Notes under the pieces: generated by a model | What the model saw: the letters and a program-made list of their open reading frames with translations, nothing else | What the model was told of the DNA's origin: nothing | The model's database searches: none | Position numbers and translations under genes: made by a program | From: a virus | IMG/VR virus record: IMGVR_UViG_3300020442_000005 | Span: 209,026-273,025 of that record | Length of the DNA stretch: 64,000 bases | Strand: one strand, 5' to 3' | Part shown: positions 4,178 through 50,871 of the stretch, piece by piece | How the letters are laid out: each line of letters opens with the position of its first letter | How positions within the stretch are numbered: the stretch's first letter is position 1

Positions 4178-5116
4178 ATGTCCGGTTCAATTAATCTTGG
4201 TTACGCATGTATCAACATGTATTTGTCAGAAACAGAAAAAAATACACCAGCTCGAACGTGTCGCAAAGCAACGTTTCTGGAAAAAGGTTTGCCTCATGTC
4301 GGTATGTTGTTCGAACAAAACATTTGCAATCTCATTGCGATTCTCAAGTGGAATTACCGCAATGGTTTCACTTTGTACCGTATGTCATCAGATATGGCTC
4401 CATGGTGTTCAGAATACAACCTAGAAGACCTTCCAAACTGGGAAACATGTAAAGACTTACTCGCCAAAGCCGGCGCGTACGCTCGCGAAACTGGACAACG
4501 TTTGTCATTCCATCCCGGGGCATTTACCGTTCTAGCAGGTAAAAATCCAGCAACACTAAAGAAATCACTCCATGAGCTTGAAATCCATGGCAAAATTATG
4601 GATACGATGGGATTACCACGTTCCCGATATGCAAAAATCAACATTCATCTTGGTGGTGCATATGGCGACAAAGACGCAGCAATTGCTCGGTTTATTGAGA
4701 ACTACAAAAAGCTATCACCAGCGGTTACTACACGTCTGACGCTAGAAAACGATGATCGACCCAATCTGTATACAACGCGTGATCTTGTTGAAAAAGTTTT
4801 TCCACACACAGGCATCCCAGTCGTGTTTGACTATCATCATCACTTATGCCATCCTGGTGACGACACAGCCGAGCAGGCTCTTGATCTTGCAGTTTCTACG
4901 TGGGGCGACGTGAAACCAGTTACCCATTATTCTGAGACTGCGCAAAAGGACAAGCCCAAAGCTGTCTTCCGTGCGCACAGCATCATGGTCGAAGGCTATA
5001 TCAATACGTACGGCCATGACATCGATTGTGTAATCGAAGCTAAAGGTAAAGAGCGCGCTGTGCAAGGTTATCTAGCTCTATACGGCAAGGAAAACACGTG
5101 TCCTGAGGTTGCGTAA
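4178..5116 (+). CDS. uvsE: UV-damage endonuclease (UvdE/UVDE)
   Basis: UvdE is a metal-dependent TIM-barrel endonuclease that nicks DNA 5' of pyrimidine dimers, 6-4 photoproducts and some other lesions. The 312-residue length fits the family. Family motifs in order: N-terminal NLGYACIN (6-13), SFHPGAF (110-116; HPGQ in most members), NIHLGGAYGDK (155-165), LTLENDD (187-193), VVFDYHHHLCHP (around 213-224) and the HYSE strand, which together supply the His, Glu and Asp metal ligands. A strong AAAGGAG precedes ATG 4178. The stop overlaps the next start. It gives the phage its own light-independent UV repair. Confidence 0.93.
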   Translation: MSGSINLGYACINMYLSETEKNTPARTCRKATFLEKGLPHVGMLFEQNICNLIAILKWNYRNGFTLYRMSSDMAPWCSEYNLEDLPNWETCKDLLAKAGAYARETGQRLSFHPGAFTVLAGKNPATLKKSLHELEIHGKIMDTMGLPRSRYAKINIHLGGAYGDKDAAIARFIENYKKLSPAVTTRLTLENDDRPNLYTTRDLVEKVFPHTGIPVVFDYHHHLCHPGDDTAEQALDLAVSTWGDVKPVTHYSETAQKDKPKAVFRAHSIMVEGYINTYGHDIDCVIEAKGKERAVQGYLALYGKENTCPEVA

Positions 5117-9354: not shown

Positions 9355-9492
9355 ATGTATTATGTTAGGAGCGTCGTTAGATTTATAAGTCAACGGCTAT
9401 GTAAACCAAAAACAATAAACAAAGAATTAGATCCGGAGTACTGTGATGCCTGTGAATGCACGCCCTGTGATTGCGGATTTGGGAGTTATTAA
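9355..9492 (+). CDS. Cys-rich 45-aa peptide
   Basis: A 45-codon frame starts directly after the mini-DnaJ stop and ends in a TAATG overlap with metK. The C terminus reads YCDACECTPCDCGFGSY, six Cys in twelve residues, suggesting a metal-binding knuckle. The N terminus is basic. Its strict coupling to both neighbours supports real translation. No family recognised. Confidence 0.65.
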   Translation: MYYVRSVVRFISQRLCKPKTINKELDPEYCDACECTPCDCGFGSY

Positions 9493-10475
9493 TGTCATTT
9501 AAAAATTATAGAACAGCAGAATGCGTCACACCAAAACATCCGGACAAAATTTGTGATACGATTTCTGACGCAATCTTAGACCATTGTCTTAAGTCAGATC
9601 CATATTCTCGAGTTGCCATTGAGACTGCTGGCGGCCATGGCCATATTCACATCACTGGTGAGATTACAACAAATGCCTTTTTGCCGCTTGAAGAAATTGC
9701 AACAGAGGTTTATGGAAAGCCAATCAAAGTTACGACCAATGTTGTACAACAAAGCAATGAGATCGCGCAAGGTGTTGACACAGGTGGAGCCGGAGATCAA
9801 GGGATTATGGTAGGCTATGCATGCGATCACAATCCAGAAATGATTCCAAACGAGTTGTTTCTTTCAAGACAGATCTGCAAAGAAATATTTAAAGCCTTTC
9901 CGTTTGATGGTAAAACACAGGTCACTCTAGAAAACAACAAAATCAAGACAGTTGTTGCCAGTTTTCAAAACGCTCCGAAAACAGAACTGACAAGAATCAT
10001 CAATGGTTGGCTAAGGTCTTGTAGTTTTCCAGTCGATGATAACGTTACCCTTCACTGTAACCCAGCTGGAGATTGGAAAGTCGGTGGCTTTGATGCGGAT
10101 GCCGGACTTACCGGTAGAAAGATCGTGATTGATAACTATGGCCCAGCTATCCCAGTCGGTGGAGGAGCATTCTCTGGTAAAGATCCAACAAAAGTAGATC
10201 GGTCCGCCGCATATATGGCTAGAAAAATTGCTGTAGATCACTTGCAACTTCTTCCAAAAAGAAAAGATGGAAACGAAATCTACGTTTATCTTGCTTATGC
10301 TATTGGCTATGACCAACCTGTACAAGCAACGATGATCGTTAACGGAAAAGAGAAATTAGTAACTGGATACGATTTAAGTCCGAACGGAATTATTGAGCAT
10401 CTGGATCTAAGAAAACCAAAGTACTTTGAAACTGCACGTTGGGGCCATATGGGCACTGACCAAACATGGGGATAA
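9492..10475 (+). CDS. metK: S-adenosylmethionine synthetase (MetK)
   Basis: Makes SAM from methionine and ATP. Diagnostic motifs: TPKHPDKICD (13-22, the ATP/metal site His and Asp), GAGDQGIMVGYA (99-110), DAGLTGRKIVIDNYG (203-217) and the phosphate-binding GGGAFSGKDPTKVDRS (223-238). At 327 residues it is about 55 shorter than typical bacterial MetK (~384); the loss is spread through loops, with all core motifs kept, so I expect activity. It opens a tightly overlapping operon with a QueF homologue, metH and ahcY, which together form a closed methyl cycle. Confidence 0.95.
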   Translation: MSFKNYRTAECVTPKHPDKICDTISDAILDHCLKSDPYSRVAIETAGGHGHIHITGEITTNAFLPLEEIATEVYGKPIKVTTNVVQQSNEIAQGVDTGGAGDQGIMVGYACDHNPEMIPNELFLSRQICKEIFKAFPFDGKTQVTLENNKIKTVVASFQNAPKTELTRIINGWLRSCSFPVDDNVTLHCNPAGDWKVGGFDADAGLTGRKIVIDNYGPAIPVGGGAFSGKDPTKVDRSAAYMARKIAVDHLQLLPKRKDGNEIYVYLAYAIGYDQPVQATMIVNGKEKLVTGYDLSPNGIIEHLDLRKPKYFETARWGHMGTDQTWG

Positions 10476-10476
10476 A

Positions 10477-10920
10477 ATGAGTTCTGAATCAACACCAAAA
10501 CCAAAAAGAAAAAGAAACTGGGCAAAGAACAGAGATATTCTGAAAGCTATACCAAACCCTTCCGGGGATGCGTATGAGATTAAAATGAAAATACCTGAGC
10601 TTACATTTGAAGGTGTTCGATCTCAGCCGGATTTTGCTAATCTGTATATCACTTTTTACCCGGGCAAAAAAGTTATTGAGCTTAAGTCATTGAAAGAATA
10701 TTTCTTTGCTTTTAGATCACAAATATATTCATATGAAAGAATCATCAATGTTATCTACGATGATATGATGGCTGTGTATGAACCAACAAGATTGCGACTG
10801 GTCATGACTTGTAATCCTCGTGGTGGGATCTCGTCTAAATTAACTGTAGATTCAGACTGGGGAGTTCGTGGTGGCAATGACCAGTTTATGGATTGGGTAG
10901 GGCAAAAAGAAGAATGGTAA
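10477..10920 (+). CDS. QueF-type T-fold protein lacking the catalytic cysteine
   Basis: The 147-residue protein aligns with type I QueF (NADPH-dependent preQ0 reductase): PELTF near residue 36, [32 protein letters not shown], a conserved YER, and NPRGGIS. QueF reduces 7-cyano-7-deazaguanine through a thioimide on the Cys of the TSLCP loop. Here that loop reads [11 protein letters not shown], one residue shorter and with no Cys, so the standard chemistry should be lost, although the Asp of QPDF and the Glu of the purine pocket remain. It may bind a deazapurine or related base without reducing it. It sits between metK and metH; metH starts inside its last codons. Confidence 0.8.
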
Positions 10921-13900
10921 GTTTTGATAAAAATCAGATCTATATTATTGATGGTGCAATGGGCACCGAAATACAGAAAAGACAGGTTGAATCCAAATTC
11001 TTTAAATACGAAGGAATCGACTGCGATGGCTTTAATGATATTTTGGTGCTCACCAAACCCGGCCTGATAAAAGATATACACGGTGATTACATCAACTCCG
11101 GCGCAAATATCATTGAGACAAATACCTTTAACGCTAATTATATTTCAGCGTTAGATTACGGACTTAGTGATGGAGCGATCGATAAAATAAACTTTAGCGC
11201 TGCCAAAATTGCAAAACAGGCTGCAAAAAAATCTAAAGAAGAGGTGTATGTAGCCGGTGTTTTAGGCCCGACTTCAAAAACTTTAAGCATGTCACCAAAC
11301 GTTACAGATCCTTCTTATAGAGATATCACGTACCATGAATTACTCAATGCTTATAAAGCCGCAACTGAAAATCTAATTCGTGGTGGCGCAGATTTGATTT
11401 TAATCGAAACAGTCTTTGACACACTTAATGCCAAGGCTGCGATTGAGGCTGTGAGACTGGTAGGAGAAGATATTCCTATCATGATATCAGGTACAATCGT
11501 TGACATGTCTGGTCGGACTTTATCTGGCCAGACTGTCGAGGCTTTTTGGAATTCCATTAAACACGCAAGGCCTATTAGTGTTGGTTTGAATTGTGCGCTA
11601 GGTGCAAAGCAAATGGATCCATTTCTGCGGCGTCTAGCAGACGTCAGTGGTTGCGCAATCAGCGCACATCCGAACGCGGGGTTACCAAACGAATTAGGTG
11701 AATACGACCAATCCCCGTCTGATATGGCAAACTATATTAAGAACTGGGCAAAAGCCGGGATTGTAAATATAATAGGTGGATGTTGTGGGTCGACTCCGGA
11801 TCACATCAAAAAGATAGCCAACACCGTAAAAAAGTTTAAACCCAAAAGGCACATAACCAGAAGTTTTAATTTGGACCGGTCAATGATTCTTTCTGGTTTA
11901 GAGGTCTTTGATAGCAAAGGAAAGAACTTTATTAATATTGGCGAGCGAACAAACGTCACTGGGTCTTCAAGGTTTAAAAAATGTATCGTAGAAAAAAGAT
12001 ATGATGATGCGTTGAATATTGCTCGTTCGCAGATTCTAAATGGCGCCCAGATTATCGATATCAATATGGACGATGGACTCTTAGATTCTAAGAGTGAAAT
12101 GATTAATTTTTTAAAAATGTTGGCATGCGAGCCTGATATTGCAAAAGTACCAATCATGCTTGATTCTTCGAAGTGGGATATCCTATCGGAAGCCATGAGA
12201 TGGATACAAGGGAAAGGTATTGTAAATTCAATTTCTCTTAAAGATGGAGAATCAGACTTTCTTGCCCGGGCAAAAGAAATTGTTTCGTGCGGACACGCTT
12301 TTGTGGTAATGGCTTTTGATGAAAAAGGGCAGGCTGATACTTTTGATAGAAAAATAGAGATATGTGAACGCGCTTATTGGATTTTAGTTAACGCAGGAAT
12401 AAAGCCACAAGACATTATTTTTGATCCAAATATCTTTGCAATCGCCACCGGGATAGAAGAACACGACAACTATGCAGTCGACTTTATAACTGCTACTGCA
12501 TGGATTAAAAAGAACCTGCCTGGATGCTACGTCTCCGGAGGATTATCAAACCTATCATTCTCTTTCAGGGGAAATCCTCGCGTGAGAGAGATGATGCATT
12601 CCGTCTTTTTGTTTCATGCTATCAAAGCCGGGTTGGACATGGCGATTGTAAACGCAGGTCAACTAATGGTGTACGACCAGATCGATCAAGGCCATCGGGA
12701 CATTGTTGAATCTGTTATTTTAAATAAGCATGAAGAAGCATCGGCACAGCTTTTAGAATTAGCAAAATCTCTATCTGGTAAAACCCGAGTAGAATCTAAC
12801 GGGTTCCAAGAATGGCGTAACGAAGAGGTTGAAGAAAGAATATCTTTTGCCCTTATAAACGGTATCGATAAATTTATCGTCGAAGATGTCAAGGAATGTT
12901 ACAACAAAATAGGCTCGGCATTAAACGTTGTTGAAGGACCGTTGATGGATGGTATGAACGTAGTTGGAGACCTTTTTGGCTCCGGTAAAATGTTTTTACC
13001 TCAAGTAGTCAAGTCAGCGCGTGTAATGAAAAAAGCAGTCTCGTGGCTCGAGCCTTTTATGGTTGGCACAGATGAAGCAATACAGAGGGAAAAAATACTG
13101 CTTGCCACAGTTAAAGGCGACGTTCATGACATTGGAAAAAACATTGTTAGTATAGTTCTTCAATGTAATGGATACGAGATAGTTGATCTAGGAGTCATGG
13201 TTCCATTAGAAAAGATACTAGAGGAAGCTGATAAACACCAGGTTGCAGCAATCGGTCTTAGCGGATTGATTACACCAAGTTTAGATGAGATGGTTAAAGT
13301 TGCTCGAGCAATGAATGAAAGACAAATGGATATACCTTTACTAATTGGTGGAGCAACAACATCAAAAGTTCACACGGCAATCAAAATATCTCCGGAGTAC
13401 TCAAAAACAGTATATATACAAAATGCATCGATTGCAGTCGGAATTGTTAATGACGTGTTAAGTAAGAGTGATGCATTCGATAAGATTAATAGGGATTATG
13501 AAGAAACTAGGGAGAGAAGAAACTCGAGAAAGCAAACGTTTGTAAGTGTTTCTGATGCAAGAAGAAATGCATATCAGCTAAAAGGAAAGCCACAGATTCC
13601 AGATAACTTTGGAATGACTATCAAAAGCAAAGCTTCAGTTTCAGAGATCATACCATATATTGATTGGGCACCGTTTGCAATGACTTGGGGAATGAAACCA
13701 AAAGATCTTACAAGCCAAGTCGGTAAAGATCTAATGAAGGATGCCCGAGAAATGCTTCGAAAACTTGATGATAAGATTGTAGTTAACTATTCATTTGCTA
13801 TCGATAAATGTACAAAAACAAATAATGACGATGTACTGGTGAAAAGACCGGATAAATCAACGACTTTTAATTTCATGAGGCAAGCAACAAAAAAATCTCG

Positions 13901-14429
13901 GCCGAATCTTTGTTTGACAGATTTCTTACATCAGGAAGATTGGATAGGGTCTTTTGCGGTCTGGGTGTGCGGAATCGATAAGAGAGCAGACATGCTCAGA
14001 TTAGCCAACGATGATTACGGATCGATCATGATGCAAGCGCTTGGGGATAGACTCGCCGAAGCAACGGCTGAATGGCTACACGAGAGGGTTCGTAAGTCAT
14101 GGTGGGGTTACTCAAAAGACGAAAACTTGACAAATACCGACCTTATAAAAGAGCGTTACTTAGGAATCAGGCCAGCACCCGGATATCCAGCCTGTCCGGA
14201 TCATACCCAGAAGATAAAAATATTAAACTGGTTAGAAATTAGTGATACAATAGAGCTGACCGAGGGTTTAACAATGTCGCCAAAGTCCGCAATATGTGGT
14301 TGGTACTTTGCAAGTGCAGAATCAAAATACTTCGGTGTTGGAAAAATACCAGACGAATACGTAGAAGATTTAAAAGAAAGAAATCCATATCTAAAAAAAT
14401 ACAAAAATCATATAACGGGAGTTAGTTAA
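10914..14429 (+). CDS. metH: cobalamin-dependent methionine synthase (MetH), full length
   Basis: Transfers methyl from 5-methyltetrahydrofolate through cobalamin to homocysteine. All four modules are present in 1171 residues (E. coli 1227). Homocysteine domain (1-300): DGAMGTEIQ, zinc ligands in GLNCALG and GGCCGST (near 288-292). Pterin domain (from ~340): [14 protein letters not shown]. Cobalamin module: helical cap, then DVHDIGKN near 734-741, whose His is the lower-axial cobalt ligand, and later [11 protein letters not shown] and [11 protein letters not shown]. Reactivation domain: [12 protein letters not shown] near 1086. No frameshift seen. It overlaps the upstream stop and ends two bases before ahcY. 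It depends on host cobalamin, folate and flavodoxin. Confidence 0.95.
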
Positions 14430-14430
14430 C

Positions 14431-15759
14431 ATGGATAAATTTACAGATTACAAAGTCGCAGATACAAATCTATGGCGTTGGGGAAAAGACGAGGTAGAAT
14501 TAGCAGAACATGAAATGCCAGGCCTCATGGCACTGCGTGAAAAGTATGCAGCAGACAAACCACTTCAAGGAGCTAGAATTGCCGGGTGTTTGCATATGAC
14601 AATCCAGACCGCTGTTTTAATCGACACTCTTGTCGAGCTTGGCGCAGATGTACGTTGGATGACGTGTAATATCTATTCGACACAAGATCACGCCGCGGCA
14701 TACATTGCAGAGCAGCAAATCCCAGTGTTTGCTTGGAAGGGAATGACCGAGGATGACTATGAGGAATGTTTAGAAAAAGTCTTATGGTTCGATGAAGGCG
14801 TAGGTCCAAACATGATTCTAGATGACGGTGGTGACCTCACAGGATATATCCTGAAGAACCATCCGGATCTTTATAAGGATATTAAGGGTATCTCCGAAGA
14901 GACAACTACTGGTGTTTTAAGATTGGTAGAGTATCAAAACGATGGGGTCCTGCCGGTACCTTGCTTTAACGTTAACGATTCTGTTACTAAATCAAAGTTT
15001 GACAACAAGTACGGATGTCGTGAGTCGTGTGTTGATGCGATTCGAAGAGCGACAGACATCATGATGGCGGGAAAAGTTGCGACTGTGGCTGGCTATGGCG
15101 ACGTAGGTAAAGGTTCTGCTGCTAGTCTGTCCGCGGCTGGCTGTCGTGTTATTGTCACTGAGATCGATCCAATCTGTGCATTGCAAGCCGTAATGGACGG
15201 ATTCCAGGTTTTACCTATGGACGAAGCGGTTAAGCAATCCGACATTGTAGTTACAGCAACCGGTAATTGCGACGTGGTTAGATCAGAACATTTTTCCAAT
15301 ATGAAAGACAACGTTATCGTTTGTAACATTGGACATTTTGATAACGAGATCGATGTAGCATGGTTAAACGAGAACTTCGAATCCAAAAACGTAAAACCAC
15401 AGGTCGACGTATATTATCTTCCGTCCGGACTGACTGATAATAAACCAAATCCTCCGTACAAGAAGATCGTTCTGTTAGCACAGGGAAGACTAGTGAATCT
15501 AGGTTGCGCCACCGGGCATCCAAGCTTTGTTATGTCCTGTTCTTTTGCAAATCAGGTACTTGCACAGATCGAGTTATTTTTGAACTCTGATAATTATGAA
15601 AATAAAGTTTATGTGCTCCCAAAGATTCTTGACGAAGAGGTTGCCAGATTGCATCTCGATCACGTTGGCGCCAAACTCGATAAACTTTCAAACGTTCAGT
15701 CGAAATACATTGGCGTGAAACAAACCGGTCCATTTAAGTCTGACGAATATCGTTACTAG
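14431..15759 (+). CDS. ahcY: S-adenosylhomocysteinase (AhcY/SahH)
   Basis: Hydrolyses S-adenosylhomocysteine to homocysteine and adenosine, using bound NAD. The 442-residue protein has all landmarks: [13 protein letters not shown] (substrate His), [36 protein letters not shown], the Rossmann motif [12 protein letters not shown] (NAD), [30 protein letters not shown] and the C-terminal K-Y-R-Y-type tail (SDEYRY). It closes the cycle with metK and metH and removes the product inhibitor of methyltransferases. A perfect terminator follows. Confidence 0.95.
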
Positions 15760-15780
15760 ATTTAAAACACTGCGCCAATG

Positions 15781-15813
15781 GAAAGGAGGGTTAATCCCTC
15801 CTTTCTTAATTTG
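15781..15813 (+). terminator. rho-independent terminator of the methyl-cycle operon
   Basis: GAAAGGAGGG at 15781-15790 pairs perfectly with CCCTCCTTTC at 15796-15805 around the loop TTAAT, followed by TTAATTTG. It lies 21 bases after the ahcY stop. The same TTAAT loop recurs in the terminator at 25598. Confidence 0.85.
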
Positions 15814-15868: not shown

Positions 15869-17005
15869 ATGAAAACAATAGAGGAATATGATTTTACTGA
15901 GCTGGATAATAAGTTCGAATCAAAACTGAGACCAGACACCAAGAGAAAAATCATTCGAACAATTAACATGGGCAAGTCTGTTGATTATATACCAGACTTT
16001 AATAAGCCTCCTCAAGCTCGAGCATACTATCTAGATAATTTCCTAGTGTATGTTGATCACGAGGATAGAAAAAAAATACTGAATGTATATTGGAATAAAA
16101 AGCTAATTGACACTAAGCTGCGAGATATCGAAAATTTTGAGCTCAAAAAACCTTTAAGAATTTCCGGAAGAGATAGTAGCCACATCTTTTCTAGAACCAT
16201 TGCGCGAGTAATTTCCAAGAAAGAAATATTAAATTGCCTGGCTAACGGCGCACAAGTAAAGAACTTTAGTAAAACTCAGAAACCAGACGGATCATTTTAT
16301 GTTTTCTATGACAGATACTACTTTGCTGACGATGTGTGCGTCGTAGCTTCTGAGACTAAGAACTATATAAATGTACGTACTGTTTATCGAACAACTCCAA
16401 TCGCAGATCAACATTTTCTCGATTTGCTTCCCAAGCTCATTAATGAACTGAAAATAAATGAAAGTAGCAACGTAAGGGCTTCTATCGTAAACAACTCTGC
16501 CCGAATGAAATATCTGCAGACAAAGGAATACATGGACTTGCAATTATTCTTGAGAACTATCAGTGGCAACAATCCATTTGTACAAGAAGAATCACTTGAG
16601 AAAGTAATCGATCAAAAATCTGTTTTGATGCCTAAGATTCTCCAATCCGCGGCAGCTGCCCGATTAAGATGCAAAGATATCGAATATTATGTTGCAACAA
16701 CTGAAAACAGCGAAAGTCGATCAAATATAAATGATTTTGTTCTGGAGTCCAACAAATCCTACAGTCTCCAGCTGTCATTTGATAACGTGAATGATAAAAC
16801 CATCGACAAGAATAGAGCGGTTACACTTAGAGAGTACGGTATTGACATTGATAAATATGAACACAGTTTAAATATTGAAAACAACAAAGCGATTCTTACG
16901 ATTGATTTTAGTCATTTTTCTGCTGCAGAAAATCCTTGGGCCATCAGAAAGAACAAGAAAAACCTTTCATTTGGATCTTTTGATTTAGAGGAGAGCGAGG
17001 TATGA
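15869..17005 (+). CDS. hypothetical protein, 378 aa
   Basis: A soluble protein with many Lys, Asn and Asp residues and no motif I recognise. Preceded by an A/T-rich box (TATTATATTATAG near 15830-15842) and GGGAGA before ATG 15869, so it probably starts a transcript after the terminator. The stop overlaps the glycosylase start (ATGA), suggesting they work together. Confidence 0.8.
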   Translation: MKTIEEYDFTELDNKFESKLRPDTKRKIIRTINMGKSVDYIPDFNKPPQARAYYLDNFLVYVDHEDRKKILNVYWNKKLIDTKLRDIENFELKKPLRISGRDSSHIFSRTIARVISKKEILNCLANGAQVKNFSKTQKPDGSFYVFYDRYYFADDVCVVASETKNYINVRTVYRTTPIADQHFLDLLPKLINELKINESSNVRASIVNNSARMKYLQTKEYMDLQLFLRTISGNNPFVQEESLEKVIDQKSVLMPKILQSAAAARLRCKDIEYYVATTENSESRSNINDFVLESNKSYSLQLSFDNVNDKTIDKNRAVTLREYGIDIDKYEHSLNIENNKAILTIDFSHFSAAENPWAIRKNKKNLSFGSFDLEESEV

Positions 17006-17463
17006 AAAGATTGTGGAACCCACCGTTGCTCAATGAATGGGCTGAGCCTTTAATACAAGAGAGATATTTCCCGGATAGATGGAAGATGCTGGTATGTTGT
17101 CTAATGTTAAATCTGACGTCACATAAACAGGTCAATCCAATCATCGATGGCTTTTTCGAAAGATGGCCCACCGCTTTGAAAGCTTCTCAGGCTGATGAGT
17201 TAGAGATGAAAGAGTATCTAAAATCCTTGGGAATGTATAACAAGCGTGCAAAAACAATTATAAAAATGTCAAAACAGTTTCTAGAAGGCTTTTCTCAGCC
17301 AAAACAATTATATGGATGCGGTAAATACGCGTCAGACTCTGATCTTATATTCTATCAGGGAAGATGGAAAGAGGTTGAACCAACCGATGGCGCGCTCAAG
17401 AGATATATACGATTTATGAAAAACTATGAAAAAAACCGTGTACAATCGATCAAAACGGCTTAA
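17002..17463 (+). CDS. MBD4-like HhH-GPD DNA glycosylase
   Basis: The 153-residue protein matches the catalytic domain of MBD4, a mismatch glycosylase removing T or U opposite G, mainly at deaminated (methyl)cytosine. Shared pattern: WNPP near the start, ERYFPDRWKMLVCCLMLN, FFERWPTALKAS, LKSLGMYNKRAKTIIKMS, then the helix-hairpin-helix LYGCGKYASDS (103-113) and EVEPTDGALKRY with the catalytic Asp at 129. No Fe-S cluster Cys tail is present, as in MBD4. It is the bare domain. An enzyme with this preference is notable next to a SAM-regeneration operon. Confidence 0.85.
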   Translation: MKRLWNPPLLNEWAEPLIQERYFPDRWKMLVCCLMLNLTSHKQVNPIIDGFFERWPTALKASQADELEMKEYLKSLGMYNKRAKTIIKMSKQFLEGFSQPKQLYGCGKYASDSDLIFYQGRWKEVEPTDGALKRYIRFMKNYEKNRVQSIKTA

Positions 17464-18121: not shown

Positions 18122-18206
18122 TGCTCGGGTGGCGGAATCGGTAGACGCACCAGACTTAAAATCTGTTGTCCGTATGGGCGTGAGGGTTCAAGTCCCTCTT
18201 CGAGCA
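18122..18206 (+). tRNA. tRNA-Leu (anticodon TAA)
   Basis: TGCTCGG pairs with TCGAGCA (one G-U) to form the acceptor stem. The anticodon loop CTTAAAA sits between CAGA and TCTG, a class II variable arm follows, and the T arm GAGGG-TTCAAGT-CCCTC is perfect. 85 bases; no CCA encoded. Confidence 0.93.
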
Positions 18207-18216
18207 TTACAATAGG

Positions 18217-18366
18217 GAATACCTGAGGGGAAGGTATTTTAAATGAGATTGACCTGAAGCTAGATATTACGCTGGGATCCACAACGAACTTTTATATGAT
18301 CGACCGCTATAATCTAGAACATCCGCCCTTTCATTTCTTTAAACAATAATTAATTAGGTTATACAA
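18217..18366. other. spacer with hairpin after tRNA-Leu
   Basis: AATACCT and AGGTATT near 18217-18238 form a 7-bp stem around GAGGGGA, possibly a processing signal or weak terminator. The rest up to 18366 holds A/T-rich boxes and no convincing gene. Confidence 0.35.
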
Positions 18367-18756
18367 ATGGAATTAACAAATGGCCAGATTGAGATAGGTA
18401 TAGTGTTTTTCTATGGCTTTGTAGCAGGATTAGTTGTCAGTATTCTGTATGCTCATGAGCGTTGGAAAAACTTCAACTACGACGAGGAACGACGGTTACA
18501 ATATCAAAAAGAAACGGATGAAAGAAGAAGGATACGCCTTGAGAAATATAAAGAGATGAGAAATCCTGAATCTCAGTTACGAGTGATACATAAGCAGGAA
18601 GAATATATAAGAGAATTACTCTTAGAGCAAGCTAGACTGCACAAACAACTCAATGCATTCGCTGGATGGCCTGAATATGAACACTTCCACGAAGATCTTA
18701 TGAAAAAAATCGACAAACGATTTGAATCTTTACGAATTGAACATGATAACATTTGA
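18367..18756 (+). CDS. membrane-anchored coiled-coil protein, 129 aa
   Basis: Residues 10-30 (IGIVFFYGFVAGLVVSILYA) form one membrane helix, followed by a long charged helix (35-95, Arg/Glu/Lys heptads) and a His/Glu-rich end. The layout recalls phage spanin or lysis-accessory proteins, but no signal cleavage site or lipobox is seen, so the function is open. It lies within the tRNA cluster. Confidence 0.7.
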   Translation: MELTNGQIEIGIVFFYGFVAGLVVSILYAHERWKNFNYDEERRLQYQKETDERRRIRLEKYKEMRNPESQLRVIHKQEEYIRELLLEQARLHKQLNAFAGWPEYEHFHEDLMKKIDKRFESLRIEHDNI

Positions 18757-18803
18757 ACAACTACAGGACTATCTGTATAATAACTAGGTAAACAAAACTT
18801 CAT

Positions 18804-18877
18804 GCATCCATAGCTCAGCTGGATAGAGCATCCGCCTTCTAAGCGGACGGTCGCAGGTTCGAATCCTGCTGGATGTA
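18804..18877 (+). tRNA. tRNA-Arg (anticodon TCT)
   Basis: GCATCCA pairs with TGGATGT (one G-U), the D arm GCTC...GAGC is standard, the anticodon loop CTTCTAA is held by CCGC/GCGG, and the T arm GCAGG-TTCGAAT-CCTGC is perfect. It reads AGA, a codon common in these genes. Confidence 0.93.
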
Positions 18878-18881
18878 CTTT

Positions 18882-18953
18882 TGGTCTGTAGTGTAATAGG
18901 TAACACACCAGTTTTTGGCACTGGCGTTCTAGGTTCAAGTCCTGGCAGACCAG
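18882..18953 (+). tRNA. tRNA-Gln (anticodon TTG)
   Basis: TGGTCTG/CAGACCA acceptor stem, D stem GTGT/ACAC, anticodon loop TTTTGGC in a CCAGT/ACTGG stem, T arm TAGG-TTCAAGT-CCTG. It begins four bases after tRNA-Arg, so they are probably cut from one transcript. Confidence 0.92.
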
Positions 18954-18992
18954 CTTTTATACAACTTTAAACAATAGGGTATTATTATTTAT

Positions 18993-19033
18993 GGGTCTAG
19001 TTAACCTCGAGGGTTCGAACCCCTCTATGACCA
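18993..19033 (+). pseudogene. tRNA remnant lacking D and anticodon arms
   Basis: A perfect T arm (GAGGG-TTCGAAC-CCCTC) followed by TATGACCA lies only nine bases after GGGTCTAG, an incomplete match for an acceptor strand. There is no room for D and anticodon arms, so this looks like a tRNA gene collapsed by internal deletion. Confidence 0.6.
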
Positions 19034-19164
19034 AGCAGGCAGGGAGCAATGACTAGATGTCGCCAACAGAAAGATATTCACCAGTATCTCCTTTTGGTTG
19101 ATAAGCCTTGGGATAGGAAAGTGGTGAGTCCTATCCCAAAGTTCCATCCTTAACTTCATCACAC
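19034..19164 (+). ncRNA. structured spacer in tRNA cluster, candidate small stable RNA
   Basis: No gene is visible here. TTGGGATAGG (19108-19117) pairs perfectly with CCTATCCCAA (19130-19139), and a smaller AGATA/TATCT hairpin lies near 19070. Phage T4 encodes small stable RNAs inside its tRNA cluster, so a similar RNA is possible; the assignment is inference. Confidence 0.35.
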
Positions 19165-19237
<73 letters not shown>

Positions 19238-19240
19238 TAG

Positions 19241-19313
19241 GCGGGAATAGCTCAGTTGGTAGAGCACCACGTTGCCAACGTGGAAGTCGCGAGTTCAAGT
19301 CTCGTTTCCCGCT
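19241..19313 (+). tRNA. tRNA-Gly (anticodon GCC)
   Basis: GCGGGAA/TTCCCGC acceptor stem, standard D arm, anticodon loop TTGCCAA in CCACG/CGTGG, T arm GCGAG-TTCAAGT-CTCGT. It begins three bases after tRNA-Thr. Confidence 0.94.
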
Positions 19314-19318
19314 CTTTT

Positions 19319-19391
19319 GGACACTTAGCTCAGCGGTCAGAGCATCCGACTCATAATCGGCAGGTCCAGGGTTCAATCCCCTGAGTGTCCA
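19319..19391 (+). tRNA. tRNA-Met-type (anticodon CAT)
   Basis: GGACACT/AGTGTCC acceptor stem, D arm GCTC...GAGC, anticodon loop CTCATAA in CCGA/TCGG, T arm CAGGG-TTCAATC-CCCTG. With a CAT anticodon it could be elongator Met, or Ile if C34 is modified to lysidine; the paired first base argues against an initiator. Confidence 0.92.
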
Positions 19392-19396
19392 CTTTC

Positions 19397-19537: not shown

Positions 19538-20395
19538 ATGATCGGACATACACCATTCATCTGTATTGACAATGATGAAAGAATATGGGCAAAACTAGAA
19601 ACACACAATAAAACCGGATCTGTAAAAGATCGAATGATTGATTACATATGCGATAATGCTCTTGCAAATGGTGCAATCATTCCTGGAAAGACCCGGCTCA
19701 TTGAGGCAACCAGTGGAAATACTGGAATTGCTTTAGCCAGTTATGCAGCCTCAGTGGGATGCAAATGCCAAATCATAATGCCATGTAACATGTCGGAAGA
19801 AAGAAAACAAATGATGCATGCGTTCGGCGCCGAAATTATAGAAACCGGCCCAAACGAATTTGGACGTGCAATTGCGATGAGAGACTTGAAACTGCGGAAG
19901 TCTAACCCCGGAGAATATTTCTCGCCTCTTCAATTTAGTAATCCTTTAAATGTGGAATGTCACAGAACAACCACAGCGCCAGAGATTCACCAGAACATAA
20001 CAGACATTAAGTGTCTCGCTTGGGATGCATTCGTGCATGGCTCTGGAACTGGAGGGACTATGATGGGATTGAAGAGTTACATTGATGAGAATAGGTTAGG
20101 AGTGAAATGCGTCTTAACTCAGCCGGAAGAAGATAACGCATCCCATGGAATACAGGGCATTAACGATGGTGCTGATTTTCTATTAGATAAGTCATTGATG
20201 GATGAGTTTATATACGTGAAGACGTCCTCAGCAATTGAACGAATGAAGAGATTCTGGAAAGAAAATGGTATCCTGATCGGCATCAGTTCCGGGGCAAACA
20301 TTCTGGCTGCAGAAGAATACGTGAGAAAGCATGATCCAGCTGGAATCGTCGTCACTATTTTATGTGATCGTGGAGAAAGATATTTAAAATGTTGA
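19538..20395 (+). CDS. PLP-dependent cysteine synthase / cystathionine beta-synthase family enzyme
   Basis: A fold-type II PLP enzyme of 285 residues. KTGSVKDR (25-32) holds the Schiff-base Lys30, SGNTG (59-63) binds the substrate carboxylate, GSGTGGT binds PLP phosphate, GISSGAN is near 247, and LCDRGERY is at the end. The first ~8 residues of typical enzymes are shortened. CysM/CysK make cysteine from O-acetyl-(phospho)serine and sulfide; cystathionine beta-synthase uses homocysteine and serine. The GSVKDR form suits CysM or CBS better than CysK. With a homocysteine-producing operon nearby, a CBS-like role is attractive but unproven. Confidence 0.88.
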   Translation: MIGHTPFICIDNDERIWAKLETHNKTGSVKDRMIDYICDNALANGAIIPGKTRLIEATSGNTGIALASYAASVGCKCQIIMPCNMSEERKQMMHAFGAEIIETGPNEFGRAIAMRDLKLRKSNPGEYFSPLQFSNPLNVECHRTTTAPEIHQNITDIKCLAWDAFVHGSGTGGTMMGLKSYIDENRLGVKCVLTQPEEDNASHGIQGINDGADFLLDKSLMDEFIYVKTSSAIERMKRFWKENGILIGISSGANILAAEEYVRKHDPAGIVVTILCDRGERYLKC

Positions 20396-40227: not shown

Positions 40228-40580
40228 GAACATGGAAACCATTATTTTTTGAAAACAGTTCGCTGCCATTGATTCTTTCCGTAGTGGCGCCAATTGATAT
40301 CGGAGCTATCACACTTGGACCATTCGTATTTTCGCGTGGAGAAATGTCTGAGGTCACTAAAAATCATGAAGCAATCCATTGGCAGCAATATATAGAAACC
40401 GGGATTATTGGTTTTGTGTTGCTATACTTGCTTTACTGGGTGATTGGTTTGATAAAATACAGAGATGGACAAAAGGCATACTACCAGATACCCTTTGAAC
40501 AAGAGGCATATGAAAATCACGAGGATATGGAATATTGCCTAACCAGAAAAAGATATGAATGGTTCCGGAGAAGCATCTAA
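40224..40580 (+). CDS. HExxH membrane protein, metallopeptidase-like
   Basis: KNHEAIHWQQ near residues 50-60 is an HExxH zinc motif, followed by a membrane helix (IGFVLLYLLYWVIGLI) and IPFEQEAYENH, whose first Glu may be the third ligand. The pattern HExIHxxQ...FExEAY is known from small membrane proteins of bacteria and phages without assigned function. It is the only gene of the array without the targeting peptide. Overlaps both neighbours (ATGA, TAATG). Confidence 0.78.
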   Translation: MRTWKPLFFENSSLPLILSVVAPIDIGAITLGPFVFSRGEMSEVTKNHEAIHWQQYIETGIIGFVLLYLLYWVIGLIKYRDGQKAYYQIPFEQEAYENHEDMEYCLTRKRYEWFRRSI

Positions 40581-42157
40581 TGTGGCAGCTAAGAAAATAC
40601 ATACGGAATTTATTGTTTGAAAATTTATCAGACGCAACTATTCCACCTCCACCAAAGGAATCAATCGAAGAGTTAAGTTCGGTTATTAACCAGTACTACG
40701 ACCGTGTTAACGATGATTCTGTTCAGTACGATTTAGACGAAAGGATGGAATTGCTGTTTAACGAAGTGGTCGAAAAGAACAGTGGGGAAAACGTTGTTGA
40801 ATATGTCAAGGAACTAAAGACGCATCCACTGGAAATAGTGTCAGCACTCAAGGAATACTTTGCAAGAAAAAGACCCGAAGATGTCGCCGCAGATTTTGGT
40901 ATTGACTGGAAGAGTGATAGCGTTGATATGAAAACTATTAACAACAGTTATTCATATCCATCCGGTCACACTGCTCAATCTTATTATGTTGCACTTAAAC
41001 TATGTGATAGATATCCACAGCTTAGGAATGAGTTGTTTGAAGTAGCAGAAGCAGTTGCGCAATCTAGAATCGATCGTGGCGTACATTTTCCTTCTGATTT
41101 AGATGCTGGTCGAATTGTAGCAAATCAGCTATACCAACAAAATAAAACAAGCACTCCTGTAATTCTTGAGGGCATGGTAAGTCCAAACTCCGTATCAGGA
41201 AAATATGCAATATGGGCAGACATATCAGCGGATCAGGCTGGAAACCTCGACGAAGATTTGACGTCAATTGATTTTCTAATGTACGACTGGTCTGCCGCGG
41301 TTAAACACATTGAAGACGAGCTCAAAGAAGCCACCGCAGACGGTCGCCCAGGCGCACTAGAAATGGTCAGGGACTACGGGATTCTTGAAGCCATTACAGA
41401 TAGCGCTGTTGCATGCATGCGAGTGAGACCGTACGGCGATTACGAAGGATGCAATAGTGCTTGGGAAGTTATTAGATCAGCGGCAGATGGCGGTTTGGGT
41501 CCGACAATGTACGATTTAATTATGTCAATCGCTCCGAATGGTTTGTTTGCTGATAGATCAGAAGTTTCTCCGGCTGCTCAAAGTGTGTATCATTTTTATG
41601 CAAACAGACGAACCAGCGTAGATAAAGATTTTCTCGACCCGGGTGGATTCACAGATACAGAATATGATGACTGTAGGACCTACGGTCGCAGAGCTGATCC
41701 GTTACGTTATGCGACTAGAATGATGGCAATGGATTATTTTGATACCGAATGGCCAGACGAGCACACTCAGTTTAAGGACAATGCTGACCTTTCAGTTCTA
41801 GAACAAGCCGGCAGCGGAGATGCTGACACCTATTTCAGAGTTGTGTCAGAATGGATTATTGATAATGTGGATCCCGACTGGGATGAAGATACCTGGTACG
41901 AATGGAAAGTAGACGGTGAGCTTGATCTAATGCGTTATTGGAAGTCCGGCCCAGATCCAACCTTCGAAGATCCGGATTATTTAAATCTTTCGTACAATAC
42001 AAACTATGCGGTTTCTAGTTTCGAAGAGATGGAAGAAAACCATATGGCATTTATAAATGAAATATCAGATATGATACCAGGCTCAGAGGAAAGATTTTAT
42101 GAAGATCCCGAAGCCTTACATTTTGCTGTCAGAGATTTTTTCAGGGAGAGAGTTTGA
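40580..42157 (+). CDS. packaged PAP2 / class A acid phosphatase
   Basis: 525 residues starting MWQLRKYIRNLLFENL, a targeting peptide with L-F-E. All three PAP2 signature motifs follow: KEYFARKRP (K91, R98, P99), PSGH (127-130) and SRIDRGVHFPSD (R163, catalytic H169, D173). Such enzymes remove phosphate from small molecules, lipids or polyisoprenyl phosphates through a phospho-His. No membrane helices surround it, so it is the soluble type. The C-terminal 330 residues are acidic, with many Trp and Tyr, and unknown. Its presence in the packaged set suggests phosphate removal from a host metabolite at entry. Confidence 0.88.
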   Translation: MWQLRKYIRNLLFENLSDATIPPPPKESIEELSSVINQYYDRVNDDSVQYDLDERMELLFNEVVEKNSGENVVEYVKELKTHPLEIVSALKEYFARKRPEDVAADFGIDWKSDSVDMKTINNSYSYPSGHTAQSYYVALKLCDRYPQLRNELFEVAEAVAQSRIDRGVHFPSDLDAGRIVANQLYQQNKTSTPVILEGMVSPNSVSGKYAIWADISADQAGNLDEDLTSIDFLMYDWSAAVKHIEDELKEATADGRPGALEMVRDYGILEAITDSAVACMRVRPYGDYEGCNSAWEVIRSAADGGLGPTMYDLIMSIAPNGLFADRSEVSPAAQSVYHFYANRRTSVDKDFLDPGGFTDTEYDDCRTYGRRADPLRYATRMMAMDYFDTEWPDEHTQFKDNADLSVLEQAGSGDADTYFRVVSEWIIDNVDPDWDEDTWYEWKVDGELDLMRYWKSGPDPTFEDPDYLNLSYNTNYAVSSFEEMEENHMAFINEISDMIPGSEERFYEDPEALHFAVRDFFRERV

Positions 42158-43368
42158 TGGCAAATAAAAGAATACCAAGAAAGAAGGGTCAAAGAAGAAA
42201 CAGTAAAAAGCATTCTGATCTGTACACTGATGAAAACCCAAAAGGAACTATAAAAGGTTTGAAGTTTGCGACTGTCAAAGATGCAAAGGCTAGCGTGAGT
42301 AAAATTAAAAAGTCCTCGCGTTCACATAATCACAAGACACAAGCTGCAATTGCAATGGAACAACGAGCAAAAGCAGCCGGCAAGAAATCGGCTGCAGCAG
42401 TTTATAGAAAGTTTATTGAGCAACAAAAGAAGAAAACTAAAGCAAAAAACGAAACTACGAGGGCTGATCTGTTTTTGGATAGACCAACGTCTCATGTTGA
42501 CTACGACGAGTCTGTAAACGATCAAATAGCTGATTACATGGTCGATATGATGCTTATCAGAGAATACATACGGGACATTATTGTTGAGAATATGGTTTCT
42601 GTTGCAGGCGATACTATGATAACAAAGTTCAGGGAGCTTATCAATCGGTACGACGCACCAACGGGGTGGCAAGTCGAGGATCCACATTTCTTTGAGTCCG
42701 GTGGAGGAAATAGCTTGATTGGCCAAATACGTTTGCAAGGCACAAGGGAAGCACTTCCGAATCTTGACAGTGAGGTCGAAAAGCAAAAACTAAGCGCAAT
42801 ATACGCTCCATTTGCAAACCGCCGAGGTTGGAATCTTCTTCAAGTACGTGAGGAACCATTGCCATCTAGAAACCCAATTATTATGTACGAGTTAAAGTTT
42901 GATAAACAACCAAACACAAAAAATACAAACTATTTCATGTCAACTCAAGAACTACAAATCAAAGAGCAAGTGCTTCTTCATCTTACTAAGGAAAGTTATC
43001 TAAAGTCAATTCAGTCAGGCGGTTTTAAACCGGCAAGAAGCTCGTCAGACGGAATAAACTTTGGTAACGGCCGAGCCTATTTTGTATCGTGCTCTAGAAT
43101 GGATTGGGAAGATTCAAGAGATGCTGCAATTGGCTGGTTTTCTCGCGCGACAGAAACTGAGGGTTTTGCTGGAATCGACCCAACAGAAAAGCAAGTCTTG
43201 TTGGTAATTGATCCAGAGAAGATGAGGAACAACATACAATTTTACGTTGATACAGAATTTGGCTACGGTTCGGGTACAGTAGGTTATTCCGGAGTTTGGG
43301 GCGGGAAAGCAATTTATACCCCGGGGCACATACGGGCAACTGCAATTGAAGAGGTTATAGATTTATGA
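42157..43368 (+). CDS. fusion: phage basic domain + internal targeting peptide + ART-like domain
   Basis: Residues 1-95 contain HSDLYTDENPKGTIKGLKF, SVSKIKKSSRSHNHKTQAA and SAAAVYRKFIEQQKKKTK, a small basic domain I know from other large phages. Residues 131-144 then read MMLIREYIRDIIVE, the targeting peptide, placed internally. The rest is ART-like: LLHLTKESYLKSIQSGGF, NGRAYFVSCSRM (Tyr-Phe-x-Ser) and a final IEEVIDL Glu. ATG 42157 follows GGGAGAG. An internal start near 42547 lacks a good ribosome binding site, so a fusion cut inside by the protease is more likely. Confidence 0.75.
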   Translation: MANKRIPRKKGQRRNSKKHSDLYTDENPKGTIKGLKFATVKDAKASVSKIKKSSRSHNHKTQAAIAMEQRAKAAGKKSAAAVYRKFIEQQKKKTKAKNETTRADLFLDRPTSHVDYDESVNDQIADYMVDMMLIREYIRDIIVENMVSVAGDTMITKFRELINRYDAPTGWQVEDPHFFESGGGNSLIGQIRLQGTREALPNLDSEVEKQKLSAIYAPFANRRGWNLLQVREEPLPSRNPIIMYELKFDKQPNTKNTNYFMSTQELQIKEQVLLHLTKESYLKSIQSGGFKPARSSSDGINFGNGRAYFVSCSRMDWEDSRDAAIGWFSRATETEGFAGIDPTEKQVLLVIDPEKMRNNIQFYVDTEFGYGSGTVGYSGVWGGKAIYTPGHIRATAIEEVIDL

Positions 43369-44129
43369 GCACACTTAGAAAAACAATACGAAAAATATTA
43401 CTAGAGTCGGCTGTGTTGGCGGACGAACAGGCAATTGCCGTAATGAAAAAAGAAGATTTGATCTTCGTAGTTAGCATGTTAGCACCTTATGAAGGAACTA
43501 TAGCTCTTTTGCGAAGGAAATACTATGACATCGAAAACGACGATTACAACCTGTCCGATGCGGTTGGGCAGATTCAATTAGGTTCTGCGGGCGAAGAAAC
43601 AATGCAGGTTTCATTCTCTGAACTTTACCGTCAATTTCGAAACAAAGGTCTGGGCAAGCTATTATATAACGTTGCTTTGATGGCATGCACTGACGAAAAC
43701 GTTTGGCTTATGTCTGACAGGAACGATGTTTCATCCAAGGCTCAAAGGATTTGGCAAACTTGGAGCAAGCTTCCTGAATTATATGATATCGAGCAAATGG
43801 ATCATGACATGATAGGCGATGATTATTTTTTGACTGATGACGAAGATGATGATATGGTGCAAAACTCTTTCAACAATGACCAATGGCGTCCGGTATCCCC
43901 TCGAATCGAGCGCTTGCCTGACGAAGCGTACACAAGTCACGAGATGTCCGACGGTCGTTTTTTCACGGTTGAAAAAGATTCATGGTTCTTCTATGACCCA
44001 GATTACAAAAAACAGTATTTGGATTCTGGATTAACAAAAAGATTCCAGATGAAAGATGCGTACGCATTGTCAAGTTATCTAGAACAAGAAGGTTTACTTT
44101 ACTACTCGTACGAGGGACCTGCTTCATGA
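43365..44129 (+). CDS. packaged GNAT-like protein (most canonical copy)
   Basis: Targeting peptide MSTLRKTIRKILLESA. Residues 85-135 give the clearest acetyltransferase motif of the family: VSFSELYRQFRNKGLGKLL (R-x-x-G-x-G acetyl-CoA loop) followed by LMSDRNDVSSKAQRIWQTW, the SDRxxVSxxAxxxW strand-helix that all eight copies keep. GNAT enzymes move an acetyl group from acetyl-CoA to amines or proteins. A C-terminal acidic region (150-250) is unknown. ATGA overlap on both sides. Confidence 0.78.
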   Translation: MSTLRKTIRKILLESAVLADEQAIAVMKKEDLIFVVSMLAPYEGTIALLRRKYYDIENDDYNLSDAVGQIQLGSAGEETMQVSFSELYRQFRNKGLGKLLYNVALMACTDENVWLMSDRNDVSSKAQRIWQTWSKLPELYDIEQMDHDMIGDDYFLTDDEDDDMVQNSFNNDQWRPVSPRIERLPDEAYTSHEMSDGRFFTVEKDSWFFYDPDYKKQYLDSGLTKRFQMKDAYALSSYLEQEGLLYYSYEGPAS

Positions 44130-44740
44130 AAAATTTAAGACGATACATAAGGAGCACGCTTTTAACTGAGGTTTGTGCCGGTGCAACAGCGCAGATTCAG
44201 AAAGGTCTAGACGTTATTGAACAAAGAGACCTTAGAGTTGAAGTCTACATAGATGGAAACGATGGATATGATGTGATTCTAGTGTCAGGAGATGGGATAA
44301 GACGTGGACGGTTTGAGGTTACGACAGTCAAGAATTGCCCGGCTTATTCGACTATGTGGACCGAAGTTGATTGGAATCTAAAAAAAACCGGCGTTGGGGC
44401 TGTAATGTATGACATTGCAGTAGAGGTTGCTACAAAACTTGGCGGACACTTGGCGTGTGATAGAGGATCTGTGAGCGATTCCGCGAAGCGCATGTGGAGA
44501 TACTATACTTCATCGGATGATTACGAAGCATTCCAGTTAGACACACCAGACTCTACTTTTACGCCGATAAAAAGTGATGATTGTCAACAGTACATTTTTC
44601 ACAGAGAAACAAAATTATATAGTGGTGATGAAGGTTTCGAACAAGAATTTATGGCATCGCCTTTTACAAAAGCTTTTCGAAAAAAGAAAATAACGACAAT
44701 TCCATGTTTGGGTAATCGATACTCGGAGATTAGAGTATGA
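44126..44740 (+). CDS. packaged GNAT-like protein, copy 2
   Basis: MKNLRRYIRSTLLTEV is the targeting peptide (L-T-E). The core reads KKTGVGAVMYDIAVEVATKLGGHLACDRGSVSDSAKRMWRYY: the GxG loop is kept without the basic residue found in canonical GNATs. The tail has SPFTKAFRKKK, similar to the SxLSKRYxKxP ending of other copies. Confidence 0.75.
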   Translation: MKNLRRYIRSTLLTEVCAGATAQIQKGLDVIEQRDLRVEVYIDGNDGYDVILVSGDGIRRGRFEVTTVKNCPAYSTMWTEVDWNLKKTGVGAVMYDIAVEVATKLGGHLACDRGSVSDSAKRMWRYYTSSDDYEAFQLDTPDSTFTPIKSDDCQQYIFHRETKLYSGDEGFEQEFMASPFTKAFRKKKITTIPCLGNRYSEIRV

Positions 44741-45693
44741 AAAATTTAAGACAATACATAAGAAAGATTTTGATAGAGTCTGCCAATACAATACACCCAA
44801 AGATTAAAAGCATGCTTGACGAGCTAGAAGAAAATTATGGAGAGATTAACATCCAAAATTATCCCAACCAGGGGCAACTTGTTGAGATAAGGTTTTATGC
44901 TGGCGCTCAGCATGGTGATAGGTATTATAACACTGGTGTTGGCGGTGGATCTGATGCTGGCGCCGTGTTCGCAATGTATTCCAAGGATAGTGTTGTTCCA
45001 TCTATGTCTACGAAAATAGGCAATTGCAATGGTGCAGTGCCCATCGGTGGTGTAGATGGCAGTCAGATCGCAGTAGAATATGGCTTTGGTCCGTTGCTTT
45101 ATGATGTTCTTTTTGATGCGGCAGTTATGCTGAGTGGAGCTACTGGGCTGACTTGCGATTACTATTCCGTAAGCGACGAAGCATACAACGTTTGGAATTA
45201 TTATCTAAAAAACCGGCCAGATATGATTGCAAAACAAAAAGACTTGACACAATATCCTCGCACTCCCGATGAATCCGATGATTGTACCGGGCCTGGTGCC
45301 GGCGGAAGTTTTGGATATAGATCCGTTGCGAAGCGGTTCGGCTTTGATAAATCTTACGGTGTAAAAGCGTCAGACAAGGATGGCATGCCGGTCCGGACCG
45401 GAGAACTTACACCGGAGTTTATCGATCATTGGTTCGACCCGGAAAACCCTCTTTCGAAAACCTATCATAGGAAAAGCGGTGGCACACCGGTCATCGATTA
45501 CTTGCGATCAAATTTTCTTTTAAACCCTAAGGCTGCAAAAGTCATAGGGCAACCGTACTCTCCGGCTGAGCTAAAAAAAGTATGGGACAGAACCATAGGC
45601 ATAGAAGAGGCCGGATATCCAGATTACATGGCAAAAAAAGCAAAGCAATGGCAGCAAAACTTTGGAGCAAACGCCGAGGATCTATTAGCATGA
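44737..45693 (+). CDS. packaged GNAT-like protein with extra C-terminal domain, copy 3
   Basis: MKNLRQYIRKILIESA targeting peptide. The core EYGFGPLLYDVLFDAAVML...TCDYYSVSDEAYNVWNYY is the family pattern with Pro after GxG. Compared with other copies it has about 100 extra residues at the end, with a Tyr/Pro-rich segment. ATGA overlaps on both sides. Confidence 0.75.
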   Translation: MKNLRQYIRKILIESANTIHPKIKSMLDELEENYGEINIQNYPNQGQLVEIRFYAGAQHGDRYYNTGVGGGSDAGAVFAMYSKDSVVPSMSTKIGNCNGAVPIGGVDGSQIAVEYGFGPLLYDVLFDAAVMLSGATGLTCDYYSVSDEAYNVWNYYLKNRPDMIAKQKDLTQYPRTPDESDDCTGPGAGGSFGYRSVAKRFGFDKSYGVKASDKDGMPVRTGELTPEFIDHWFDPENPLSKTYHRKSGGTPVIDYLRSNFLLNPKAAKVIGQPYSPAELKKVWDRTIGIEEAGYPDYMAKKAKQWQQNFGANAEDLLA

Positions 45694-46382
45694 ACCAATT
45701 GAGAAATTACATAAGGCAAGTTTTAGTTGAAATGGCTGCACCGCGACCAATTGACTTAGATGCTGTATATTATCATGGGACACCTACGAAGGCAAATGCC
45801 GAGGATATAATGATCAATGGTATAAAGGCACCTGATTTGTCGTCCAGAGAAGGCTATCTTCGACCAGTTGAAGGAAAAGTTTATCTCACAAGAGATTTGG
45901 CATACGCTCAAATCTATGCTTTGGGCGGTGACCTTGCAGGCAAAAATGTTCCTGATTCGTTTAAGGGATATGGACAATACGGGTATGTTTTTGTTGTCGA
46001 CGGCAAACAGCTAAAAGACATACAACCAGATGAAGACAGTGTTGGCGAATTGGTATATAACGAGGAAATAGATTGGCTTGATGAGTTAGCTAAGGATATC
46101 CTTAAATACGAAGAATACGATGACTTCGGGCAGGATCTTGGCTATAGAAACCTTTACGATGCGATAATTGGCGGCGAATACGACGCATGGGCTGCCGGAG
46201 GCAAAATTTTGTTAGATGAAATGTCTGATGATCAAAAACTTAATCTACTCGATTATGGTGCCCATGTTGCACACACAGGAAATCTCATACCAAAAGAAAC
46301 ATGGAGAATAGAAAGAAATAAAACACCCGAATTGCAGAAAGATGGTTCGAACTTTTTTGATCTAGCGGAGCGGATAAAGTGA
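45690..46382 (+). CDS. packaged ADP-ribosyltransferase-like protein
   Basis: MNQLRNYIRQVLVEMA targeting peptide (L-V-E). AVYYHGTPTKANAEDIMINGI places His29 in the YHGT strand typical of KptA/DUF3990-type ARTs; GKVYLTRDLAYAQIYA is the Tyr-x-Thr strand and following helix; a candidate catalytic Glu lies in VGELVYNEEIDW. These three strands define the NAD-binding H-Y-E group. The target is unknown. ATG 45690 overlaps the previous stop. Confidence 0.8.
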   Translation: MNQLRNYIRQVLVEMAAPRPIDLDAVYYHGTPTKANAEDIMINGIKAPDLSSREGYLRPVEGKVYLTRDLAYAQIYALGGDLAGKNVPDSFKGYGQYGYVFVVDGKQLKDIQPDEDSVGELVYNEEIDWLDELAKDILKYEEYDDFGQDLGYRNLYDAIIGGEYDAWAAGGKILLDEMSDDQKLNLLDYGAHVAHTGNLIPKETWRIERNKTPELQKDGSNFFDLAERIK

Positions 46383-47050: not shown

Positions 47051-47063
47051 ATGAGATTACAAA

Positions 47064-49035: not shown

Positions 49036-49038
49036 ACC

Positions 49039-50336: not shown

Positions 50337-50365
50337 CTTAGTAAACAATGAGGCAAAAGACAGCA

Positions 50366-50857: not shown

Positions 50858-50871
50858 TTAGGAAAGCCACA

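Follow-up and report, generated by a model that had tools for sequence, protein, structure and literature searches.

The hazard that deamination poses to DNA containing 5mC or 5hmC is already known, as is the MBD4 domain family. The MBD4 glycosylase domain has been crystallised with a 5hmU:G mismatch (4ew0), 5hmU being the deamination product of 5hmC (PMC3488261), and a void-filling Arg468 was described as a feature of mammalian MBD4 (PMC5406665). In the T/G glycosylase Mig.MthI, the Tyr of the HhH loop (Y126) is required for activity (PMC2714593). Among phages, Xp12 has all of its cytosine (100% by LC-MS) replaced by 5mC (PMC7653180). The Xp12 dCMP methylase is a member of the TS family, in which Asp in place of Asn marks the cytosine-using enzymes (PMC5175136). 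The DNA of phage AXL1 is restriction-resistant like that of Xp12, and an ENDO3c protein of AXL1 was found by its authors otherwise only in Xp12 (PMC9206674). Phages substituted with 5mC or 5hmC share the hazard of methylated animal genomes: the deamination product, T or 5hmU, resembles a normal base fully or nearly. The open literature that we searched contained no explanation of how such phages keep this hazard in check and no description of a broad viral MBD4-type branch tied to cytosine modification at the nucleotide level.

The gene described here lies in a window of 64,000 nucleotides at the very end of a virus record of 273,025 bp; the phage is known through metagenome sequence only. The record is probably near complete, since its ends repeat (165 bp, 2 mismatches). 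The relevant features are listed in Table 1.

Table 1 Features considered in the analysis (window positions unless stated otherwise)
Feature	Position	Strand	Remarks
UvdE-family UV/AP endonuclease	4178..5116	+	Homologue at most 3 kb from glycosylase gene in two related contigs
SAM-recycling operon (SAM synthetase, QueF-like, MetH, SahH)	9471..15759	+	Adjoins glycosylase unit; judged not part of the system
Strong terminator-like hairpin, 11 pairs	15780..15806	+	Splits SAM operon from glycosylase transcription unit
ORF without assigned function, 378 aa	15869..17005	+	Weak DUF4258 match under Pfam cut-off
MBD4-type DNA glycosylase, 153 aa	17002..17463	+	ATG start; Pfam, PDB sequence and structure matches
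T4 gp42-type dCMP hydroxymethylase (TS family)	187505-188194 of full record (outside window)		PDB and gp42 matches

The glycosylase domain and its active site

The product of the glycosylase ORF matched Pfam HhH-GPD at E=1.5e-10, beyond the curated cut-off. Each of the best 15 matches among PDB sequences was an MBD4 glycosylase domain, with E-values of about 1e-28 to 1e-26 (best 4e-28), and the next one was MutY (0.0024). The identity to human MBD4 was 44% over 135 aligned amino acids and reached up to 50% in other viral members of the family. The AlphaFold2 model, which was built on a 42-sequence alignment, had a mean pLDDT of 95.6. All 16 Foldseek matches in the PDB at E<=1e-3 were MBD4, and the predicted model fitted the mouse MBD4 domain with a G:5hmU mismatch (4ew0) with an rmsd of 1.2 Å. 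A chance match to MBD4 is ruled out, and there is hardly any doubt that the ORF encodes a glycosylase domain that is of the MBD4 type in both descent and fold. A PHROGs search with the protein gave no match. The ORF has only three Cys (32, 33 and 106), and the C-terminal iron-sulphur Cys cluster is absent. We use the name MBD4-type and not MBD4 protein because the ORF holds the glycosylase domain alone, the N-terminal methyl-CpG-binding domain being absent. A stand-alone MBD4-like glycosylase in a phage had been proposed in a sequence-only reading of the locus, and the HhH-GPD match, the close matches to MBD4 only, the sequence identity and the model fit all confirm it.

That reading had also seen a match to MBD4 from WxPP through the HhH to Asp129, in agreement with our alignment to human MBD4: WxPP (W5-P8) corresponds to WTPP, Y109 of the HhH loop LYGCGKY to Y540, and D129 to D560. 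In an alignment of 62 phage-type sequences and human MBD4, the equivalents of Y540 and D560 were kept in 62/62 viral sequences, and N467, G507 and F548 (human numbering) were likewise invariant in all 62. At the HhH-loop position, EndoIII has its lyase Lys and MutY a Ser, whereas the window glycosylase, MBD4 and Mig.MthI have Tyr. On the basis of this Tyr in place of the lyase Lys, the window enzyme is predicted to be a monofunctional pyrimidine:G glycosylase, and its activity on T, U and 5hmU opposite G is very likely. The void-filling pair Arg468/Leu508 of the mammalian enzyme was not matched in the window protein (Leu38/Met78). In the viruses of the 62-sequence alignment, the Arg468 column contained mostly Leu or Gln and the Leu508 column Met, Leu or Phe. 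The pair is treated here as a trait of mammalian MBD4 and not of the domain family.

Cytosine chemistry of the phage and the gene neighbourhood

The TS-family protein encoded elsewhere in the genome matched the T4 dCMP hydroxymethylase (PDB 1b49) at 5e-70, and its identity to the gp42 proteins of T4-like phages was as high as 55%. Both the catalytic Cys and the cytosine-specific Asp (Asp179) are present, the latter at the position where dUMP-using enzymes have Asn; TS homologues with this dCMP-type Asp are called D-type below, and those with the Asn of dUMP-using enzymes N-type. The gene clusters with those for DnaE, a DUF6378 protein, a dUTPase-like protein and dCMP deaminase (the names dUTPase, DnaE and some others outside the Pfam calls were assigned by eye). 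ThyX, a Fpg/Nei glycosylase and UvdE are also encoded in the genome, and the predicted ThyX can act as a separate source of dTMP. The SAM-dependent DNA methylases found, D12 and MT-A70, are of the adenine type only. A search of the 273-kb record for a C5-cytosine methyltransferase (PF00145) gave no match, while 10/14 control genomes gave one.

Judging from the gp42-type enzyme, the phage very probably modifies its cytosine. The gene predicts that genomic cytosine is 5hmC or a derivative, which would then be found in virions, and the expected lesion is 5hmU:G. The sequence-only reading had suggested 5mC or a derivative in the genome; the modification of cytosine finds support in the hydroxymethylase gene, but 5mC as the modified base does not. 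The CpG/TpG statistics that it had put forward as a check gave an observed/expected ratio for CpG of 0.998 over the whole genome, i.e. no depletion, and a TpG frequency of only 1.10 of that expected. CpG depletion as a sign of 5mC was thus not seen, and it would be uninformative if the modification were context-free. Its absence is consistent with either context-free modification or effective repair and is not decisive.

The stop codon of the 378-aa ORF overlaps the glycosylase start (GTATGA), which suggests translational coupling of the two genes. Homologues of this ORF were sought in the flanks of six related loci (L003, L004, L114, L036, L043 and L060), and none matched. In the large related phages L036, L043 and L060, the glycosylase gene comes just before those for Fpg/Nei, DnaE and a TS homologue of the D-type; the window phage appears to have relocated its copy. 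In the window, six tRNA genes (Leu, Arg, Gln, Thr, Gly, Met; 18122-19392) are clustered directly downstream of the glycosylase gene. A PLP-dependent cysteine-synthase-like enzyme is encoded at 19538-20395, in addition to the SAM-recycling genes. A long run of ORFs at 40559-54637 (249584-263662 of the full record) shares the short N-terminal motif MKxLRxYIRxIL..., and akin N-termini (MKITRRQLRRIIxE) are repeated genome-wide, perhaps as a packaging or processing signal.

Relatives in viruses and cells

A profile scan of IMG/VR found 517 viral contigs with relatives of the glycosylase. Among those of at least 40 kb, 20/36 carried a TS homologue, and at least one D-type copy was present in every one of these 20 contigs, the copies coming from several distinct subfamilies. 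The control set consisted of 33 viral contigs of the same minimum length, picked through random 14/15-mers; TS was found in two of them, both read as N-type, and D-type TS in none (0/33). The difference in D-type TS between the two sets gave a Fisher p=7e-8, a value that overstates the evidence owing to contig kinship and unequal set lengths. An Nth match in an Acinetobacter 'phage' was rejected as a control, its flanks being host-type rnfB and adk. Neither TS nor C5-methylase was detected in nine of the IMG/VR contigs, which belong to the S-TIM54-like branch and measure up to 238 kb. C5-methylase was likewise not found in the remaining TS-less glycosylase contigs; fragments occur among these TS-less contigs. 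Six contigs (G014, G016, G017, G019, G025 and G030; e.g. locus L142) encode, alongside canonical ThyA, a divergent member of the TS family of ~270 aa that has Asp at the dCMP position; that of G016 was recovered with a second query. This protein possibly represents an undescribed subfamily of dCMP-modifying enzymes.

Full-length relatives were found by tblastn in the named phages DoCa6 and YB23 of Xanthomonas, AXL1 of Stenotrophomonas, Donnerlittchen of Janthinobacterium and cyanophage S-TIM54. The TS homologues of the named carriers had Asp in 5/5 cases. In the first four phages (Bradleyvirinae), the glycosylase gene adjoins genes for an NTP-pyrophosphohydrolase, D-type TS, dCMP deaminase and DHFR, some of these neighbours being named by homology alone. 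In the carriers, the gene occupies one identical genomic site. The glycosylase is optional in phages with D-type TS, since several Bradleyvirinae with such a TS (DLP4, DoCa10, Elanor and PaMx28) lack the gene, as do A1432 and others with a D-type TS.

Fpg/Nei homologues were present at 18/74 glycosylase loci and at 0/114 random loci; the Fpg/Nei gene often abuts the glycosylase relative, and the reading frames often overlap. UvdE homologues were found at four glycosylase and two random loci of the same sets. The UvdE of the window is a candidate AP-site nuclease because of the proximity of its homologue to the glycosylase gene in the two related contigs (Table 1).

Among 84,980 species genomes of bacteria and archaea, a scan with strict motifs, which divergent forms would escape, revealed six loci: two EndoIII and four MBD4-type, the latter in three assemblies. 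One of the loci (L114; NHDW01000006.1) lies on a 306-kb contig of the Methylococcaceae MAG TMED69. This contig is probably a misbinned jumbo phage, because its glycosylase is 81% identical to the window protein and it also carries a D-type TS homologue and further genes of the window phage. When 398 Pseudomonadota genomes were searched with a profile, the matches listed included no further full-length one beyond one contig, the rest fitting the MutY/Nth background. The MBD4-type family is near absent from bacteria. In the IQ-TREE phylogeny, human MBD4, the only eukaryotic sequence included and one with a long branch, was placed inside the viral family. Two viral contigs formed its sister group (support 97/95), and all of them belonged to a group of 22 rows (99/96). 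It is conceivable, though rather doubtful, that the MBD4-type glycosylase originated and still mainly resides in cytosine-modified phages, and that eukaryotes obtained the catalytic domain of their MBD4 from such a virus; the phage family at any rate raises the question of the origin of MBD4. An insect virus, Clostera anastomosis granulovirus A, also encodes an MBD4-like HhH-GPD protein (BFVD U5KBB0, Foldseek E=1.2e-8).

Proposed role and comparison with known systems

We consider it probable that the glycosylase is a repair enzyme that phages encode to accompany a cytosine-modified genome, and its likely role is to repair modified cytosines of the phage's own DNA after their deamination. The gp42-type enzyme would convert dCMP to 5-hydroxymethyl-dCMP, so that genomic cytosine would be wholly or partly 5hmC or a derivative. 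Deamination would turn 5hmC into 5hmU:G and residual C into U:G. The glycosylase would flip T, U or 5hmU mispaired with G out of the duplex, and D129 would hydrolyse the glycosidic bond, leaving an AP site. This site could be nicked by the phage Fpg/Nei (AP lyase) and/or UvdE, and polymerase and ligase would complete the repair.

The enzyme might instead be a general-purpose U/T mismatch glycosylase that repairs the U:G mismatches left in a large phage genome when normal cytosine deaminates, and that has no specific tie to modification. MBD4 removes U:G too, the genomes are large and contain other repair genes (Fpg, UvdE), and the S-TIM54-like branch is mostly without a detected cytosine-modifying enzyme. 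We nevertheless regard this explanation as unlikely in view of the strong link to D-type TS homologues, which belong to several distinct subfamilies, and the occurrence of a homologue in the fully 5mC-containing phage Xp12 (PMC9206674, PMC7653180). A part in counter-defence or competition, i.e. the reversal of damage by host cytosine deaminases or the excision of bases from host or rival phage DNA, is less probable still. Glycosylases do act in phage-host conflict, Brig1 and Brig3 excising glucosyl-5hmC and 5hmC (PMC11078745, PMC13160076), but the Brig enzymes belong to the uracil-DNA-glycosylase superfamily and not to HhH-GPD (PMC13160076). Moreover, MBD4-type enzymes require a mismatch, so that intact DNA is no target, and the neighbouring genes are those of replication, nucleotide metabolism and repair, not of anti-defence. 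The sequence-only reading had linked the physically close SAM-recycling genes to genomic 5mC. In such a scheme, a C5-methyltransferase would make the 5mC and the glycosylase would repair T:G, but this is highly improbable and the operon was rejected as the 5mC source: PF00145 gave no match in the genome, homologues of SAM synthetase, MetH and SahH were found near 0/74 related glycosylase genes, the terminator-like hairpin separates sahH from the glycosylase unit, and the cytosine-modifying enzyme found belongs to the folate-dependent TS family and is not SAM-dependent.

Under the preferred reading, repair of the phage's own deaminated cytosines, phages with modified cytosine probably bring their own kit for the mutations that these cytosines cause. 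The natural presence/absence contrast in close phages, AXL1 and DLP4, makes the question of repair testable, and the glycosylase gene could help to flag cytosine-modified phages in metagenomes.

Compared with the glycosylase domain of human and mouse MBD4, the phage enzyme has the same fold according to the predicted model, the same catalytic Tyr and Asp and the same WxPP start, and it likewise lacks an iron-sulphur cluster. It differs in being stand-alone, without the methyl-CpG-binding domain, in the replacement of Arg468 by Leu and in being viral and linked to dCMP-modifying enzymes, not to CpG methylation. AXL1 gp65 and the Xp12 homologue belong to the same family and have the same catalytic residues, gp65 being ~35% identical to the window protein across the whole domain; their phages have proven (Xp12) or likely (AXL1) 5mC. 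AXL1 gp65 was annotated as an ENDO3c domain only (PMC9206674) and had been given no functional role. Its gene is in an operon with the dCMP-type TS, unlike the window gene. Mig.MthI is also an HhH-GPD T/G mismatch glycosylase with the HhH-loop Tyr which counters 5mC deamination (PMC2714593), but it is closer to MutY and is cellular, not viral. MutY/Mig.MthI-like HhH-GPD genes with the C-terminal Cys cluster were also observed near DNA cytosine methyltransferase genes on plasmids of Halorubrum, Haloplanus and Alisedimentitalea (L309, L310 and L311), a parallel pairing of cytosine methylation with a possible mismatch glycosylase. Brig1 and Brig3 are, like the phage enzyme, DNA glycosylases from the world of cytosine-modified phages, but they serve bacterial defence and excise the modified cytosine itself.
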